Of a stretch of DNA of 64,000 nucleotides, positions 8,995-17,735 are shown piece after piece. The stretch is from Nocardioides okcheonensis. GTDB lineage: Bacteria > Actinomycetota > Actinomycetes > Propionibacteriales > Nocardioidaceae. The stretch is taken from positions 1,488,001 through 1,552,000 of the forward strand of contig NZ_CP087710.1 of assembly GCF_020991065.1 (NCBI RefSeq). Reading direction: 5' to 3'. The notes under the pieces are model-generated. The model made no database searches. It was not told the origin of the DNA and was given only the letters and a program-made list of their open reading frames with translations. How positions within the stretch are numbered: the stretch's first letter is position 1; each line of letters starts with the position of its first letter. The translations under genes and the position numbers were made by a program.

Positions 8995-10410
8995 GTGAGC
9001 GAGCCGACTGCCGAGACCCCTGCCGAGACCGCCGCCGGAGCCCCCGAGGGCACCGAGGACGCCCAGCCGAAGACCGAGTCGCACGACCCGGCGGTGCCCG
9101 CGGCCTACGCCGCCTTCATGCGCGAGGGCTGGGGCAACCGCGACCTCGACCTGCCCCGCCACCCGGTCGCCGACCGCGCAGCGGCGCGGCGCGCCAAGCT
9201 GGCCGAGGCGTTCCCGGGCGAGCGCCTGGTGCTGCCCGCCGGGACCTTCAAGGTGCGCTCCAACGACACCGACTACCGCTTCCGCCCCGACACCGCCCAC
9301 ACCTACTTCACCGGCAACCAGACCTCCGACGCGGTGCTGGTGCTCGACGACGGCGAGGCGGTCCTCTACGCCCGGCCCCGCTCCGAGCGCGACACCGACG
9401 AGTTCTTCCGCGACCGGCAGTACGGCGAGCTGTGGGCCGGCCGCCGGCCGTCGGCCCAGGAGATCTCGGACTCCCTCGGCATCGAGGTGCGCCACGTCAA
9501 GGACCTCCCGTCCTTCGACGACGACCGCAAGACCCGCGACCTGACCCGCGACGAGGACCTCGCGCGGGTGGCCGACGAGCTGCGCCTGGTCAAGGACGAG
9601 TGGGAGGTCGGCGAGCTTCAAGAGGCGTGCGACATCACCGCGCTCGGCTTCGAGGACTCCGTGCGCGAGTGGGACCGCGTGCGGGAGTTCGGCGAGCGCT
9701 GGATCGAGGGCACCTTCTTCCGTCGCGCCCGTGCGATGGGCAACGACATCGGCTACGACTCGATCTGCGCCGGCGGGTCGCACGCGACCACGCTGCACTG
9801 GATCGACAACACCGGGCCGATCGAGCCCGGCAAGCTGGTCCTGCTCGACATGGGCGTCGAGGGCCGCAACCTCTACACCGCCGACGTCACCCGCACCCTC
9901 CCGGTCGACGGCCGGTTCACCCCGCTGCAGCGCGACCTCTACGACCTGGTCCAGCAGGCGCAGGAAGCGGGGATCCAGGCCGTGCGTCCCGGCGCCGCGT
10001 TCCTCGCCGCCCACAACGCCGCGATGGAGGTGCTGGCCCACGGCCTCGAGGACCTCGGCCTGCTGCCGGTCTCCGCGCAGGAGGCGCTCGACCCTGAGTC
10101 GAAGGTCTACGCCCGCTGGACCCTGCACGGCACCTCGCACATGCTCGGCATGGACGTCCACGACTGTGGTCGCACGTCGGTCGACATCTACCCCAAGGGC
10201 GACCTCGCCGAGGGCATGGTGCTGACCGTCGAGCCCGGTCTGTACTTCCAGGAGGACGACCTGCTCGTCCCCGAGGAGCTCCGCGGCATCGGCATCCGGA
10301 TCGAGGACGACATCCTCGTCACCGCCGACGGCCACCGGAACCTCTCGGCCTCGCTCCCGCGCACGTCCGCCGACGTCGAGGAGTGGATGGGGTCCCGCAT
10401 CGGTGCCTGA
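8995..10410 (+). CDS. pepP: Xaa-Pro aminopeptidase (M24B, PepP family)
   Basis: This 471-residue protein has a peptidase M24B N-terminal region and a pita-bread catalytic domain. The five expected metal ligands are visible: D285, D297, H382, E413 and E437, in the contexts DMG, ADVTR, TSHMLG, VEPGLY and RIEDD. The enzyme removes an N-terminal residue preceding proline. The GTG at 8995 is followed by an Ala/Glu/Pro-rich stretch that is probably disordered. Its end overlaps the next gene by eight bases, suggesting co-transcription with the rRNA methyltransferase. Confidence 0.9.
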   Translation: MSEPTAETPAETAAGAPEGTEDAQPKTESHDPAVPAAYAAFMREGWGNRDLDLPRHPVADRAAARRAKLAEAFPGERLVLPAGTFKVRSNDTDYRFRPDTAHTYFTGNQTSDAVLVLDDGEAVLYARPRSERDTDEFFRDRQYGELWAGRRPSAQEISDSLGIEVRHVKDLPSFDDDRKTRDLTRDEDLARVADELRLVKDEWEVGELQEACDITALGFEDSVREWDRVREFGERWIEGTFFRRARAMGNDIGYDSICAGGSHATTLHWIDNTGPIEPGKLVLLDMGVEGRNLYTADVTRTLPVDGRFTPLQRDLYDLVQQAQEAGIQAVRPGAAFLAAHNAAMEVLAHGLEDLGLLPVSAQEALDPESKVYARWTLHGTSHMLGMDVHDCGRTSVDIYPKGDLAEGMVLTVEPGLYFQEDDLLVPEELRGIGIRIEDDILVTADGHRNLSASLPRTSADVEEWMGSRIGA

Positions 10411-11566
10411 CGCGTCGCCGGCGTCCAGCCTCACCGTCGAGGGCGGCGACCTGCGCTGCCACCACTTCGACGCCGGGCGGTGCCGCTCCTGCACGCTCCT
10501 CGAGGTGCCGCGCGTGCGACAGGTCGCCGACAAGGAGGCGCACGCCCGCTCGCTCGTCGACGCGCCCGTGTGGCTGCCGACGGTCGCCGGCGCTGACGCC
10601 GGGTTCCGCAACAAGGCGAAGATGGTCGTCGGCGGCACCGTCGCGGTGCCGACCCTCGGGATCCTCGACCGCGGCCTCGCGGGGATCGACCTGCGCGACT
10701 GCGGCCTGCACTCCCCCGGGCTGCGCGCGGCCCTCGACCGGGTCTCCGGCTGGGTCGGCGAGGCCGGCCTCACGCCCTACGACGTACGCGCGCGGGCCGG
10801 CGAGCTCAAGCACGTGCTGCTGACCGAGTCACCCGACGACGAGCTGATGCTGCGGCTGGTGATGCGGTCGACGGCGCTGGAGGCCCGCGTGCGGTCGCGG
10901 CTGCCCGCCCTGCACGAGACCCTGCCGGCGCTACGGGTCGCGACGATCAACGTCCAGCCCGAGCACAAGGCGGTGCTGGAGGGAGAGCGCGAGGTCGTGC
11001 TCACCGACGAGGCGACGCTGCCGATGCGCCTCGCCACCGGCGTCACCCTGCGGCTGGGGCCGCGGTCGTTCTTCCAGACCAACACGAGGGTGGCCGAGGC
11101 GCTCTACGAGCAGGCGCGCACGTGGGTCGGCGCGCTCGACGAGGTGCGTTCCGCGTGGGACCTCTACTGCGGGGTGGGCGGCTTCGCGCTGCACCTCGCG
11201 GCGCCGGGGCGCGACGTGCTCGGCGTGGAGGTCTCCCCCGACGCGATCGCCGCCGCAGGCGCGACGGCTGCCGGGCTCGGCGTGGCCGCCCGCTTCGTCG
11301 CCGCCGACGCGACGGCCTGGGCGCTCGCCCAGCCGGGCGCACCGGACCTGGTCGTGGTCAACCCGCCGCGGCGCGGGATCGGCGCGGACCTCGCTGGCTG
11401 GCTCGAGACGTCGGGTGTGCGCCACGTCGTCTACTCGTCGTGCAACGCCGAGTCGCTCGCCCGCGACCTCGCGCTGATGCCGTCGCTGCGGCCCGTCGAG
11501 GCGCGGGTGCTCGACATGTTCCCGCACACCACCCACTACGAGGTGATGGTGCTGCTCGCGCGCTGA
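10403..11566 (+). CDS. rlmC: 23S rRNA (uracil-C5)-methyltransferase, RlmC type
   Basis: This 387-residue protein carries the [4Fe-4S] cysteines C19, C27, C30 and C100, a SAM-binding motif (DLYCGVGGFAL) and an NPPRRG motif. The catalytic C347 lies in the SSCNAE context. The cluster near the N-terminus without a TRAM domain matches RlmC/RumB rather than RlmD. It methylates uracil in 23S rRNA. The start is a GTG inside the end of pepP. Which uridine is modified cannot be told from sequence. Confidence 0.85.
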   Translation: MPDASPASSLTVEGGDLRCHHFDAGRCRSCTLLEVPRVRQVADKEAHARSLVDAPVWLPTVAGADAGFRNKAKMVVGGTVAVPTLGILDRGLAGIDLRDCGLHSPGLRAALDRVSGWVGEAGLTPYDVRARAGELKHVLLTESPDDELMLRLVMRSTALEARVRSRLPALHETLPALRVATINVQPEHKAVLEGEREVVLTDEATLPMRLATGVTLRLGPRSFFQTNTRVAEALYEQARTWVGALDEVRSAWDLYCGVGGFALHLAAPGRDVLGVEVSPDAIAAAGATAAGLGVAARFVAADATAWALAQPGAPDLVVVNPPRRGIGADLAGWLETSGVRHVVYSSCNAESLARDLALMPSLRPVEARVLDMFPHTTHYEVMVLLAR

Positions 11567-11580
11567 GTCGCGACCTGCGC

Positions 11581-12216
11581 TCAGCCGCGGTGGACCTTCG
11601 GGCCGCGGACCTCGACGCTGTCGTCCTCGTAGCCGGTCACGCCCGCCTCGTCCCACGCCAGCACGAGGTCGTCCTCCGTGCCGGACCCACCGGGGACCCG
11701 GCCGGTCAGCCGGGCGACGCCGACGCGGACCCACCGGGGGTCCTCGATGCACACGGTGGGGACGGTGATCGTCAGGCGGTCGGCGGCCGGGTTGACCTCG
11801 GAGATCAGTCCCCCGCACTGGCGCGGCGTCTCACGGTGTCCGCGGGTGAGGCTCGTGAAGGTCTCGCGACCGGAGCGTCCCACCATGACGCCCCAGAGCC
11901 GCTGCTTCGAACGCAGCGCCACAAACGTCCGGTCGATGTGCGCGTCACGCAGCGACCGCACGTGGACGACCACCCGGAGCGCGTCGGCGCGGTGGTCGAC
12001 CACGACGCGTGTGATGTCGGTCGTGGCGTCGCCGCGGGCCGGCACGACGACCTCCTGGCCGGTGGCGTCCGACGCCTCCAGGTCGAAGGAGACCGCGTCG
12101 CGGGACGCGTCGCGCACCACCTCCCGCTCCGCGTGGGCGGCCGGGCCGGCGACGGCGACGAGCAGCCCGGCGGACAGGAGTGCGCCGAGCAGGCGCGCGG
12201 GTGCGGAGGAGGGCAC
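11581..12216 (-). CDS. Secreted HRG-tail family protein, copy 4 of 4
   Basis: This 211-residue protein of unknown function has a signal peptide of about 29 residues ending AHA-E. It belongs with the next three genes to one paralogous set. All share a DAxxD-type start of the mature part, a TD(I/V)xR strand, two cysteines and a DPRWV(R/Q)(V/L)G segment after the second cysteine. All end in GP(K/R)(V/I)HRG or a close variant. Here the cysteines are in QCGG and TVCIED, and the protein ends PKVHRG. The start is taken as the GTG directly before the signal sequence. The predicted fold is beta-rich and secreted; no enzyme motif is visible. Confidence 0.75.
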   Translation of the reverse strand: MPSSAPARLLGALLSAGLLVAVAGPAAHAEREVVRDASRDAVSFDLEASDATGQEVVVPARGDATTDITRVVVDHRADALRVVVHVRSLRDAHIDRTFVALRSKQRLWGVMVGRSGRETFTSLTRGHRETPRQCGGLISEVNPAADRLTITVPTVCIEDPRWVRVGVARLTGRVPGGSGTEDDLVLAWDEAGVTGYEDDSVEVRGPKVHRG

Positions 12217-12251
12217 GAGTGAGGTCCGATCTAGGGGCGGGATGGTGGGGT

Positions 12252-12869
12252 TCAGCCGCGGTGCACGCGCGGCCCGAGGACGAGGGGACGGTCGGAGTAG
12301 CCGTCGGTGCCGGCCACGTCGACGTGGGCCGTCGGGCTGTCCCCGGTGGCCGGGTCGTGCACGACGTCGAGCGCGACCAGGGCGAGCCCGACCTGCACCC
12401 ATGCCGGGTCGCCGATGCACCGGGTGGGCACGCGGAGGACGATCACGTCCGTGGGCCCGTCGAACGTGGTCCGCAGGCCCGGGCAGGCGGGCGCCGAGCG
12501 CCGGCCCTCCAGCCGGGAGACCACCTGGCCGTTGGCGCGCTCGGCCATCAGCATCCACGAGGTCCGCGGGGTGCGAATCCGTGCGAGCAGCTGCTGGGAG
12601 AGGTCCGTGCGGTCCAGGTCACGGACCGACACCGTCACGGAGACGGCGCTGCGACGGTGGACGACCACGGTCCCCAGGACGTCGACGGTCGTCTGGTCCG
12701 GTGCCGGGACGACGAGCTCGCTGTCGGACGGCCCGGCATAGCCGGGGAACGCCACGACGTCACCGGCGACGTCGTCGACCGCTGCACGCTCGGCGTGGGC
12801 CGGGGCGGCGAGCAGGAGGACGGCGGACAGCAGGAGGGGCAGCAGGGTGCGGCCGAGGTGGCGGGTCAT
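12252..12869 (-). CDS. Secreted HRG-tail family protein, copy 3 of 4
   Basis: This 205-residue paralogue has a signal peptide of about 26 residues ending AHA-E. The mature part opens with DDVAGDVV and contains the two family cysteines in PACPGLR and TRCIGDPAWVQVG. It ends LGPRVHRG. Only 29-35 bases separate the copies, so the four genes are probably one transcript. Function is unknown. The disulfide is inferred from the two conserved cysteines in an exported protein. Confidence 0.75.
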   Translation of the reverse strand: MTRHLGRTLLPLLLSAVLLLAAPAHAERAAVDDVAGDVVAFPGYAGPSDSELVVPAPDQTTVDVLGTVVVHRRSAVSVTVSVRDLDRTDLSQQLLARIRTPRTSWMLMAERANGQVVSRLEGRRSAPACPGLRTTFDGPTDVIVLRVPTRCIGDPAWVQVGLALVALDVVHDPATGDSPTAHVDVAGTDGYSDRPLVLGPRVHRG

Positions 12870-12898
12870 CGGGTCTCCAGTCGTGCGTGCGTCGTCGG

Positions 12899-13504
12899 TC
12901 AGCCGCGGTGGATACGCGGGCCCTTGCCCAGGCTCGTGTCGCGGATCGTCCCGCGGTGGCCGTCGTCGCCGTAGAACGGAGCGGTGGTGGCCTCCTGCGG
13001 GAACAGCGCGAAACCGGCCGCCGCGACGCCGAGCTGCACCCAGCGCGGGTCGTCGAGGCACGCGGCGGGGATCGAGAGCGAGACCGTGTCGGCGCCACCG
13101 TCGAAGCGGACGCGCAGCCCACGGCAGTAGGCGTCTTCGCCCCGACGGTGCGCCATCAGGGTCCGGACCCGCGATCCGGGCTCCTTCGAGGCGACCACGT
13201 AGAAGGCGTCGCGCGGGGTGCGAAGCTCGACGATGGTCTCCTGGTACCGCGTGTTGAGCAGGTCTCGGAAGTGGACCGTGACCGCCACGCGGGTCGTCCC
13301 GTACGCGGCGACCGTGCGCACGATGTCGGTGGACCCCTCGTCGGGGGCGGGGAGGAACTCGAGGTCGTCGGCGAACAGGTCGGCCTGCTGCACGTCTCCC
13401 ACGGCGTCGTCGGTCACCACCTTCTCGGCGTGCGCCGGAGCGGCGAGCAGGAGGACGGCGGGTACGAGCGCGGCGACGACGCGCGCGCGACGGAGGGAGG
13501 ACAT
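12899..13504 (-). CDS. Secreted HRG-tail family protein, copy 2 of 4
   Basis: This 201-residue paralogue has a signal peptide of about 26 residues ending AHA-E. It shows the family landmarks DDAVGDV, TDIVRTV, YCRGLRVRFDGG and AACLDDPRWVQLG, and finishes with GKGPRIHRG. The spacing between the two cysteines is close to that of the other copies. No catalytic residues or known domain could be recognised. Confidence 0.75.
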   Translation of the reverse strand: MSSLRRARVVAALVPAVLLLAAPAHAEKVVTDDAVGDVQQADLFADDLEFLPAPDEGSTDIVRTVAAYGTTRVAVTVHFRDLLNTRYQETIVELRTPRDAFYVVASKEPGSRVRTLMAHRRGEDAYCRGLRVRFDGGADTVSLSIPAACLDDPRWVQLGVAAAGFALFPQEATTAPFYGDDGHRGTIRDTSLGKGPRIHRG

Positions 13505-13539
13505 GTCGGTTCCTGTTCCGGTCGGAGGGGTCGGTCTCG

Positions 13540-14202
13540 TCAGCCGCGGTGCACGCGCGGGCTCTTGCCGCGGCTGCGCTCGCTGACGTGGGCGCGGAAG
13601 GCGTCGTCGACCCAGCCGGCGACGTTGACCGATCCGTCACCGAGGGGAGTGACCTGCAGCCTCGTGGCATAGGAGCCGAGCTGGATCCAGCGCGGGTCCC
13701 CGACACACGCGGCGGGGAACGAGGCCGTGACCGTGTCGGCGACGTAGTCGTAGCGCACGCGCACGGTGCGGCAGAAGCGCGGACGCTTGCCCTCCCCGGA
13801 GAACCGCGGAGGCATGAGCAGCCCGTAGCCGGTCCCGTCCGGTCCCTTGTCGGCCAGGAGGGAGAAGCGACCGTCGGGCGTGACCACGAGCATGTCCAGC
13901 GAGTGGTCCATCGTGTCGACCAGGTCACGGAACTGCGTCGTGACCGTGATGCGCCTCGCGTGCTGCACGGTGGTGCGGACGACGTCGGTGGCCACCTCGG
14001 CCGGCGCGTGGAGGAACAGCGGCTGCTCCTCCTCGCTGCTCTCGCCGAACAGGAACCCGCCGAGGTCGGAGCCGAAGTTGAGCGCCCGAGCGTCGCCGGC
14101 GCCGTCCTCGACCGTCACGGTCTCGGCGTGGGCGACTGCGGGCAGGAGGAGGAGGGCAGGGACGAGGGCGGCGACGAGCCGCGCGACGGGTCGCAGTGAC
14201 AT
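13540..14202 (-). CDS. Secreted HRG-tail family protein, copy 1 of 4 (promoter-proximal)
   Basis: This 220-residue paralogue is first in transcription order. Its signal peptide ends AHA-E near residue 26. It carries an acidic insert (GESSEEEQP) that the others lack, then TDVVRTTV, the cysteine segments FCRTVRVRYD and AACVGDPRWIQLG, and the ending KSPRVHRG. The ATG at 14202 is preferred over an in-frame ATG upstream because it directly begins the signal sequence. Function is unknown. Confidence 0.75.
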   Translation of the reverse strand: MSLRPVARLVAALVPALLLLPAVAHAETVTVEDGAGDARALNFGSDLGGFLFGESSEEEQPLFLHAPAEVATDVVRTTVQHARRITVTTQFRDLVDTMDHSLDMLVVTPDGRFSLLADKGPDGTGYGLLMPPRFSGEGKRPRFCRTVRVRYDYVADTVTASFPAACVGDPRWIQLGSYATRLQVTPLGDGSVNVAGWVDDAFRAHVSERSRGKSPRVHRG

Positions 14203-14459: not shown

Positions 14460-15857
14460 ATGAATACTTCAGTTGAGGCGCCGGCAAAGCGCTCGCGCCT
14501 CCGGCTCCCGTCGTTCGGCGTCCAGGTCCTGACCGGCCTGGTGCTCGGCGTGGTCCTCGGCCTCGTCGCGCGCTCGATGGGCGCGGACGGCGTCGACTCC
14601 GCGACCGGCGAGGTCGACCCGAACTGGCTGACCGAGACGCTCAGCACCGTCGGCGGCACGTTCGTCACGCTGCTGCGCGCGGTCGTCCCGCCGCTGGTGT
14701 TCCTCGCGATCGTCGCCTCGATCGCGAACCTGCGCGAGGTCACGAACGCCGCCCGCCTGGCCTGGAAGACGCTCTCGTGGTTCGCCATCACCGCCCTGAT
14801 CGCGGTGACGATCGGCATCGCGCTCGGCCTGGTCCTCCAGCCGGGCGACCACACCAGCGTGACGTCGGACGCCGCGTCCGCGCCGTCGTCGAGCGGCTCG
14901 TGGCTCGACTTCCTCACCGGCCTGGTCCCGGCCAACGTGCTCGGCCTCGAGGGCTACGACAACGGTGACGGCAGCGTCGGCTTCTCCTTCAACGTGCTGC
15001 AGATCCTCGTGGTCGCGATCGCCGTCGGCATCGCCACCCTCAAGGTCGGCGAGGCGGCCGACCCGTTCCTCGCCTTCGTCCGCTCCGCGCTCGCCGTGGT
15101 CCAGAAGGTGCTGTGGTGGATCATCCTGCTCGCCCCGATCGCGACCGTCGGCCTGCTCGGCAACGCCGTGGCCAGCTACGGCTGGGACGCGCTGGGCTCG
15201 CTCGGCACCTTCACGGTCGCGATCTACGCCGGCCTGGCGATCGTGCTGCTGGGGGTCTACCCGGCGCTGCTCAAGCTCAACGGGCTCTCGGTGCGCCAGT
15301 TCTTCTCCGGCGCGTGGCCGGCCATGTCGCTGGCCTTCGTCTCCCGCTCCTCGGTCGGCACCATGCCGCTCACCCAGAGCGTGACCGAGCGCAACCTCGG
15401 CGTCCCCCGGTCCTACGCCTCGTTCGCCGTGCCGCTGGGTGCGACGACCAAGATGGACGGCTGCGCCTCGATCTACCCGGCGATCTCCGCGATCTTCGTC
15501 GCCCAGTTCTTCGGGCTGGACCTCTCCGTCACCGACTACGTGCTGATCGCCTTCGTGTCGGTCATCGGCTCGGCGGCCACCGCCGGCGTCACCGGCGCGA
15601 CCGTGATGCTGACGCTCACCCTGTCCACGCTGGGCCTCCCGCTCGAGGGCGTCGGCCTGCTGCTGGCGATCGACCCGATCCTCGACATGGGCCGCACCGC
15701 GGTCAACGTGACCGGCCAGGCCCTGGTCCCGACGATCGTCGCGAAGCGCGAGGGCATCCTCGACCGCGAGACCTACGACGCCCCGCGGGGTCGTACGCCG
15801 TGGCGCGAGGAGGCCGAGCCGGCCGCGGACCGCGAGCCCGCGGGAGCCGCCGCCTGA
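14460..15857 (+). CDS. Dicarboxylate/amino-acid:cation symporter (DAACS family)
   Basis: This 465-residue membrane protein has eight or so hydrophobic segments and the DAACS landmarks: a serine-rich hairpin (SRSSVGTMP), the GATTKMDG turn and DMGRTAVNVTG in the last helix. Family members import dicarboxylates, glutamate/aspartate or cystine with protons or sodium. The ATG at 14460 follows an AT-rich patch. The leader peptide upstream hints at a sulfur amino acid such as cystine, but the substrate is not readable from sequence. It is a single-gene unit closed by a strong hairpin. Confidence 0.85.
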   Translation: MNTSVEAPAKRSRLRLPSFGVQVLTGLVLGVVLGLVARSMGADGVDSATGEVDPNWLTETLSTVGGTFVTLLRAVVPPLVFLAIVASIANLREVTNAARLAWKTLSWFAITALIAVTIGIALGLVLQPGDHTSVTSDAASAPSSSGSWLDFLTGLVPANVLGLEGYDNGDGSVGFSFNVLQILVVAIAVGIATLKVGEAADPFLAFVRSALAVVQKVLWWIILLAPIATVGLLGNAVASYGWDALGSLGTFTVAIYAGLAIVLLGVYPALLKLNGLSVRQFFSGAWPAMSLAFVSRSSVGTMPLTQSVTERNLGVPRSYASFAVPLGATTKMDGCASIYPAISAIFVAQFFGLDLSVTDYVLIAFVSVIGSAATAGVTGATVMLTLTLSTLGLPLEGVGLLLAIDPILDMGRTAVNVTGQALVPTIVAKREGILDRETYDAPRGRTPWREEAEPAADREPAGAAA

Positions 15858-16325: not shown

Positions 16326-17735
16326 ATGTCACACACGATCACGAGAACGGCGTCCGCGCTGGTCTTCGTCACCGGCCTGGCAGGCGTCGCGATCGCTTCC
16401 TCGCCCGCCGGCGCCACCACCACCGACACGACTGCGACGGTCGACTCCTCCGTCAGCTCCGCGCAGCCCGGCACCAACTTCGGCTCGAGCTCGACCCTGA
16501 CGGTCGACGGCCGGACCAACCGCACCCAGCAGGCGTTCCTCAAGTTCACCGTCCCCGACGTCGCCGCCGGCGAGACGCTGGACTCCGTCACCCTGCGGCT
16601 CCGGCCGACCGTGGACTCCTCCACCGGGGTCACCGTCGTCCGTGCCGGCAACGGCTGGACCGAGGGCAACGTCACCTGGTCCTCGCGTCCCTCGACCACC
16701 GTCAGGCTCGGCACCTCCGGTGCGCTCGCCGCCGGGACCGTCGAGTCGATCGCGCTCGACGCGTCCAAGCTGACGCCCGGCGAGGTGCTGAGCGTGCGCA
16801 TCGAGACCTCGGCCAGGAAGGCGCTCACCTTCTCCTCGAGCGAGGCCCGCACGGCCTCGTCCCGCCCGGAGCTCCGGGTGAGCACGGCCAGCAGGCCCAC
16901 CCCGACGCCGACGCCCACCCCGACGCCGAACCCGACCTCCTTCCCGCCGGCCACGCCGGTGATGCCGAAGGTCATCGGCATGAGCGCCCCGACCAACCTG
17001 TGGGCGCAGCGGATCCAGGAGGTCGGCGCGCAGGGCGTGACCGCCCGCCGCATCTTCGCCGACCTCTCGGCCAGCGGCTCCAGCCAGCTGCCGCTGATCC
17101 GCGAGACCATCGCCGACGGCATGATGCCGGTCATCTCCTACAAGGTGCCGGACCCGGCCGCCCTGGCCAACGGCTCCTACGACACCTGGCTGTCCACGCT
17201 GCGCTCGCAGCTCACCGGCCTCGGCGCCCCCGTGACCGCGACCTTCTGGCACGAGCCCAACGGCGACATGGACCCGGCCGTGTTCCGCGCCGCCAGCCTG
17301 AAGTTCTTCAACCTGGTCGACGCGCCGTCGATCGCGGTGGGCCCGATCCTGAACGGCTGGCTGCTCGACCGTCGGGTCAGCGACTTCGCCGCCTTCACCG
17401 ACGCCACGCTGCTCAACAAGTGGGAGTTCGTCGCGGTGGACTCGTACCAGAACGGCACCGCCGCAGCGCCCGGCGACCTGCTGCCGGCCCGCGCCGTCCC
17501 GCTGCTCGCCTCGTGGATGGACTCGGTCGGCCACCCGAACAAGCCCCTCGGGCTCGGTGAGTACAACGGCCACACCGCGCAGGCCGTGGCCGAGGCCGGC
17601 GAGTCGATCCTGTCGACGCCCGAGCTGTGGTTCGGCCTCGCCTGGAACAGCACCGCCGGTGCCTACTCGCCGCTGGTCGGCGACCGGATCACCGCCTTCC
17701 AGCGCACCAAGGCAGACCCCCGCGCTCGCCGATGA
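16326..17735 (+). CDS. Secreted DNRLRE-domain protein with GH26-like glycosidase domain
   Basis: This 469-residue protein has a signal peptide ending near residue 30. A DNRLRE/CBM96-like beta domain follows (about 36-190: QAFLKF, LRLRPT, GNVTWSSRP). Then come a Pro-Thr linker (about 195-212) and an alpha/beta domain resembling GH26 endo-mannanases. In that domain E310 (HEPNGDM) and E412 (GLGEYNGH) are placed like the acid/base and nucleophile of clan GH-A. It probably acts outside the cell on a polysaccharide. The long untranslated region upstream suggests its own regulation. The exact substrate is uncertain. Confidence 0.7.
   Translation: MSHTITRTASALVFVTGLAGVAIASSPAGATTTDTTATVDSSVSSAQPGTNFGSSSTLTVDGRTNRTQQAFLKFTVPDVAAGETLDSVTLRLRPTVDSSTGVTVVRAGNGWTEGNVTWSSRPSTTVRLGTSGALAAGTVESIALDASKLTPGEVLSVRIETSARKALTFSSSEARTASSRPELRVSTASRPTPTPTPTPTPNPTSFPPATPVMPKVIGMSAPTNLWAQRIQEVGAQGVTARRIFADLSASGSSQLPLIRETIADGMMPVISYKVPDPAALANGSYDTWLSTLRSQLTGLGAPVTATFWHEPNGDMDPAVFRAASLKFFNLVDAPSIAVGPILNGWLLDRRVSDFAAFTDATLLNKWEFVAVDSYQNGTAAAPGDLLPARAVPLLASWMDSVGHPNKPLGLGEYNGHTAQAVAEAGESILSTPELWFGLAWNSTAGAYSPLVGDRITAFQRTKADPRARR

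Follow-up and report, generated by a model that had tools for sequence, protein, structure and literature searches.

We analysed a 64,000-nt stretch of the Nocardioides okcheonensis genome (contig NZ_CP087710.1, positions 1,488,001 to 1,552,000; hereafter the window, whose own numbering we use) and found that four tandem genes, g1 to g4, encode a protein family without a name in the libraries searched, whose conserved C-terminal end is very probably a structural part of the fold, its last β-strand. The original prediction had taken the shared terminal His-Arg-Gly (HRG) for an invariant tail, perhaps a binding, processing or anchoring signal. We favour, with moderate confidence, a reading in which the array encodes tandem exported β-sandwiches of the DOMON/CBM9 type that end on this strand and bind ligands outside the cell.

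The four genes occupy positions 11581 to 14202 of the minus strand in an operon-like arrangement, with spacers of 29–35 nt, and are transcribed in the order g4, g3, g2, g1. The open reading frame (ORF) list and the coordinates bear out the earlier description of four adjacent signal-peptide proteins of 201–220 residues, and the sequences agree with the features attributed to them: two cysteines, a D-P-x-W-V/I segment after the second cysteine and an HRG directly before the stop codon in all four. Each is predicted from its sequence to carry a Sec-type signal peptide ending AHA/E. Because g2 to g4 are 25–37% identical to g1, the four genes are diverged homologues and a chance match is excluded. 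Searches of Pfam and NCBIfam returned nothing above noise for the array proteins, and a search of the PDB by sequence gave noise only, in line with the statement that no described family has this end. A limited literature search, from which we claim no wider absence from print, found no paper on the family.

We found that the final triplet varies among relatives, while the residues directly before it are better kept. A protein search gave 59 relatives, among them the g3 cluster of the window itself and a seemingly frameshifted entry (P0039); the four with an organism name are all Nocardioides. Their last three residues are HRG in 34, RRG in 18, FRG in 2, TRG in 1 and other triplets in 4. Among 48 close members (profile score of at least 150 bits, drawn from genomes and named contigs, five of them from the own genome), the ends are RRG in 31, HRG in 13, and RRD, FRG, FAG and FPG in one each; when only other genomes are counted, RRG ends 30 of 43 members, HRG 9 and other triplets 4. 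More distant members have an xRG end in 36 of 90 cases and HRG in 4 of 90. In a tree of 55 members, His and Arg swap among close relatives, such as G178 with RRG beside G088 with HRG.

An alignment of 197 rows, numbered as in g3 and lacking P0001, P0039 and P0062, contains 194 distinct sequences (three are repeats), over which we counted residues. Position 195 is G, S or T in 194/194, position 196 is P in 167/194, position 197 is R or K in 189/194 and position 198 is I, V or L in 192/194. Position 199 is His in 57/194 and Arg in 86/194, followed by R200 in 150/194 and G201 in 154/194. The best-kept part of the tail is thus [GST]-P-[RK]-[IVL], directly before the final triplet. Within the own genome, the identical HRG is real in the array, and the pattern was overstated beyond it: a fifth close paralogue (C1:1435440) ends in RRG and a distant sixth (C1:1014460) in GPRVAHGS. 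HRG is therefore largely not conserved outside the cluster, although it is the commonest end among the protein-search relatives (34 of 59), and the idea of an invariant tail is not supported.

Nor is the motif always terminal. Its distance from the end is 2–4 residues in 116 of 136 members; the remaining 20 comprise nine that were flagged with more residues after the motif and eleven that do not fit the pattern. Among the flagged members, about 35 residues follow the motif in four (L138, L041, L043 and L178) and 5–6 residues in three, while in L126 and L152, whose ends are GPELSRG and SPLIRRG, the pattern had matched falsely. In most members, nothing after the motif is able to form a membrane segment.

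Structure prediction and residue coupling place the tail inside the domain. An AlphaFold2 model of g3 from 56 sequences (mean predicted local distance difference test score, pLDDT, 93.2; predicted template modelling score, pTM, 0.84) is a nearly all-β domain with its last strand at 197–199. We also modelled g1, which by identity to g3 is the most divergent copy; its model from 48 sequences (pLDDT 89.0) has a two-residue strand at 208–209. In a mean-field coupling analysis of the 197 rows (effective number 163), the top 28 long-range pairs include 31–195, 66–198, 62–200 and 27–201. The top 100 contain 14 couplings of the tail, eight of which involve strands 27–32 and 61–68, compared to 0–2 in 12 tail-shuffled runs, and the remaining six lie elsewhere; these strands were picked after the first ranking, the shuffles do not preserve phylogeny, and the coupling set is larger than the model alignment and overlaps it. 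Consequently, the earlier proposal stands in part: the C-terminal segment is conserved, but it is predicted as a strand of the domain, with support from coupling, rather than as a binding, processing or anchoring signal.

We next weighed the alternative that a dedicated enzyme or receptor reads HRG as a signal for sorting, anchoring or processing, which we consider highly improbable. Sorting signals of the LPXTG or PEP-CTERM kind consist of a motif followed by a hydrophobic helix and basic residues, and they occur on otherwise unrelated exported proteins. The closeness of the motif to the end in most members, the conservation of R200 and G201 and the HRG of 34 database relatives would all suit such a signal. 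However, His occupies position 199 in fewer than a third of the aligned members, about 35 residues can come after the motif, the g3 and g1 models have no C-terminal helix, and the tail, predicted within the fold, shows coupling to two other strands. The motif followed by a helix and basic residues was not found, as 116 of 136 members end 2–4 residues after the motif. The same signal on unrelated exported proteins was likewise not found in scans of the own genome. There, a strict pattern of tail plus stop had four matches, all in the family (four of its five close members). A looser pattern had 12, comprising the five close members, three matches ending in TGG without a stop and four others with a true stop, none of which looks secreted; a backwards control pattern had five. 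On the tail counts, the genome pattern scans, the models and the coupling, we rejected the sorting-signal idea.

The overall fold is likely DOMON-like, judging from the models. Both have 12 strands of at least three residues each, short ones counted. Structure comparison gave CBM9 and a glucodextranase module as the best matches. Chain C of the ethylbenzene dehydrogenase structure 2ivf was also matched, which we take to be the gamma subunit, although the paper names the alpha subunit. PMC4846438 describes the DOMON/CBM9-like fold as an immunoglobulin (Ig)-like β-sandwich of 10–11 strands; in strand number, the predicted models agree with this Ig-like definition. An Ig-like sandwich lineage unrelated to DOMON and CBM9 would still have the tail as its last strand, and would make protein–protein contacts, as in adhesion, an inhibitor or a scaffold, rather than bind a small ligand. 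We regard it as unlikely: among the 50 matches listed for each model, alignments that begin at residue 25 or 29 are confined to CBM9, 2ivf_C and the glucodextranase module, whereas the Ig matches start at about 54–67 and cover 109–124 residues. A search of a viral structure library gave no match below E 0.001.

The sequences themselves show no link to DOMON or CBM9. A Pfam scan of 58 members at E up to 1 gave only noise, with no DOMON- or CBM9-type match. When we compared the family with 24 CBM9_1 domains, drawn from 30 loci, using hhalign with either the 197-row alignment or the alignment A3, the probability was 0.1%, and we rejected sequence homology to CBM9. From A3 and the related alignment A4 we had dropped near-duplicate or frameshifted entries (P0035, P0038–P0041 and P0047) and the window's own P0001.

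Four aspartates are conserved in 193–194 of the 194 rows (D33, D37, D60 and D180) and may hold an alkaline-earth, calcium-like ion in a putative metal site, the DOMON-type site being a group of clustered aspartates that binds a group 1 or 2 metal; the cysteine pair probably forms one disulfide (C127–C149 in g3). In the mechanism that we propose, the array proteins would be exported through Sec as free-standing single domains and cleaved after AHA, with the disulfide, and perhaps the ion, stabilising a small sandwich. The ending [GS]P[RK][IV]xRG would be the last β-strand, packed between the N-terminal strand and strand 61–68. With the N- and C-terminal strands side by side, the chain could end with its last strand; the tail would be conserved because the fold needs this strand, and would resemble a tag at the terminus solely because the chain stops directly after it in most members. 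Binding of a ligand on a face of the sandwich has, in our estimate, about an even chance; if DOMON and CBM9 domains are a guide, the extracellular ligand could be a glycan or a small molecule. Rapid divergence among the copies would then alter the ligand bound, while copies would be gained and lost at one fixed position next to an rlmC-like gene.

The family is found well beyond this locus. The own genome, a single contig of 4.47 Mb, has eight family-profile matches at E up to 1e-3, or seven when fewer candidates are scored. With the own genome counted, a match was present in 122 of 196 sampled Nocardioides genomes and in 29 of 394 genomes of a class-level sample, 19 of the 29 being from the same taxonomic family; the ten from outside it have best E-values of 9e-11 to 6e-4. 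A secreted family of this reach has no Pfam or NCBIfam entry that we could find, and it can be tested with the help of its predicted fold, invariant residues and syntenic anchor. Inspection by eye of four ORFs, in three stretches with long open frames, saw no fusion to another domain; the family domain there brings a signal peptide of its own, close to where the frame ends. Distant Nocardioides branches also occur as neighbouring copies, at L119 (G098:C22:69200-72200), L136 (G053:C15:568400-574700) and L157 (G134:C1:3483700-3486700), with ends that include RAG, RRG and ARG; therefore, arrays form beyond the rlmC locus too. Five weak matches (L049, L051, L058, L059 and L061), most from outside the genus, carry W-V-x-x at or near the end (SPWVRRG, GPWVAYQVPR, PPWVRYR and YGWVAR), which suggests a still wider family sharing the last strand.

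We found that close members are mostly anchored to one site. The array converges with a U5-methyltransferase-type gene, for which rlmC is a working label, and 14 nt (11567–11580) separate the stop codons of this gene and g1. Coordinates are available for 46 close members, 40 of them within 6 kb of the rlmC-like gene and all 40 convergent with it; two more are at distances of 62 and 485 kb, and another four lie on different contigs. The arrangement is present in 25 of 26 genomes, with 1 to 4 copies at the site; in the remaining one (G127), the members are near a contig end and the gene starts another contig. Named Nocardioides loci, some of which come from the same genomes, have the same neighbours in eight of nine cases; the ninth stops short of them. 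For seven genomes that do carry a similar rlmC, no close member is among the matches listed; of the four that we examined, G164 has a frame-split copy, G112 has the C-terminal part only, and G177 and G168 have none. A simple promoter and terminator scan of the array found none and is uninformative for this organism. On the other side of the array, a sodium:dicarboxylate symporter gene (PF00375, E 2.9e-102; 14460–15857, plus strand) diverges from g4, and a nearby gene at 16326–17735 (plus strand) encodes a protein whose N-terminus is signal-like and which has a CBM96 domain (PF24517, E 1.4e-18, residues 32–186).

The array genes evolve fast. Compared with G021, the closest genome by rlmC (87%), the ratios of nonsynonymous to synonymous substitution rates (dN/dS, NG86) are 0.55, 0.82 and 0.50 for g1, g2 and g4 and 0.13 for rlmC (194 codons), and the mature part of g2 has a ratio near 1 (Ka 0.135, Ks 0.13). 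For g3, the gene in the corresponding position (42% identity, ratio 0.93) was left out, as it lies outside the g3 tree clade. These values are not proof of positive selection: they come from a single genome pair, and whole-gene ratios are below 1, so relaxed constraint explains them equally well.

Fast change at a fixed site also bears on a different reading, in which the array is a diversifying exported repertoire whose tandem copies each meet a changing partner (a competitor, a phage or a host surface), similar to polymorphic antagonist or decoy families. The copy number beside one gene in 25 genomes, the elevated ratios, and the frame-split and partial copies that two of the four inspected genomes have at this site are what it would lead us to expect. 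The ratios below 1 from one genome pair tell against it, as do the scanned flanking genes, which encode an aminopeptidase, a methyltransferase and a symporter but nothing of a toxin, immunity or delivery type. PADLOC gave a single noise match (g1 to a type I specificity subunit, E 0.013), and anti-phage defence was rejected. We consider such a repertoire improbable. The version compatible with the predicted fold, a Nocardioidaceae-centred DOMON-like repertoire in which each copy would recognise a different changing extracellular partner (a glycan, competitor or phage) and the last strand would be the fixed part of a variable scaffold, appears equally doubtful.

Table 1. Array genes, their C-terminal strand codons and the adjoining gene, in window coordinates.
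Feature	Position	Strand	Basis
g1: secreted protein, 211 aa, GTG start, end GPKVHRG	11581..12216	-	ORF and start-codon list; model m558028458d88, pLDDT 89.0
g2: secreted protein, 205 aa, end GPRVHRG	12252..12869	-	ORF list and sequence features
g3: secreted protein, 201 aa, end GPRIHRG	12899..13504	-	ORF list; model m6b9902ef3a47, pLDDT 93.2, pTM 0.84
g4: secreted protein, 220 aa, end SPRVHRG; leads presumed operon	13540..14202	-	ORF list; tree clade with eight other Nocardioides genomes
g1 codons of conserved C-terminal strand (predicted), GPKVHRG	11584..11604	-	ORF list, pattern scan, model, alignment counts
g2 codons of conserved C-terminal strand (predicted), GPRVHRG	12255..12275	-	ORF list, pattern scan, alignment counts
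g3 codons of conserved C-terminal strand (predicted), GPRIHRG; E197-199 in model	12902..12922	-	ORF list, pattern scan, model, coupling
g4 codons of conserved C-terminal strand (predicted), SPRVHRG	13543..13563	-	ORF list, looser pattern scan, alignment counts
U5-methyltransferase-type methyltransferase (rlmC-like), convergent with g1	10403..11566	+	Pfam PF05958, E 1.9e-13; synteny in 25/26 genomes

Several known systems resemble the array proteins in part. The sugar-binding tryptophans of CBM9 number two; the family has a single conserved one, W155 (188/194), and an F, Y or W at position 101 in 86%. The CBM9 module of Thermotoga maritima xylanase 10A (PDB 1i82) is part of an enzyme, whereas the array proteins are free-standing, have a conserved cysteine pair and show no sequence or profile similarity to CBM9; binding of the sugar by tryptophans is described in PMC4846438. 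The glucodextranase module of Arthrobacter globiformis (PDB 1ug9, residues 775–1020) sits in a 1019-residue chain, unlike the single-domain array proteins, which have no Pfam match; this module is absent among the matches listed for g3. For DOMON-type domains, PMC4846438 gives ligand binding on a sheet face as the established function, and PMC2739507 and PMC9883506 treat DOMON as well. Compared to the DOMON domains of 2ivf_C and of dopamine beta-hydroxylase (PMC4846438), the array proteins lack a Pfam DOMON match and a conserved Met/His/Lys pair for heme. Among the possible axial ligands (Met, His, Lys and Cys), only position 68 is His, Met or Lys in more than half of the rows; it is His in 162/197 but Tyr in g3, with no conserved Met or Lys partner, and the two Cys are presumably joined in a disulfide.

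The proteins share with LPXTG and PEP-CTERM substrates a short conserved C-terminal motif on exported proteins. They differ in having no C-terminal helix, in a motif predicted to belong to the fold and, in the own-genome pattern scans, in its confinement to one homologous family among secreted-looking proteins. Where a fold simply ends on its last strand, as in this case, a conserved C-terminal triplet can pass for a sorting signal. The array encodes an unnamed family of a known kind of fold, with nothing new in kind about either the fold or the tail.
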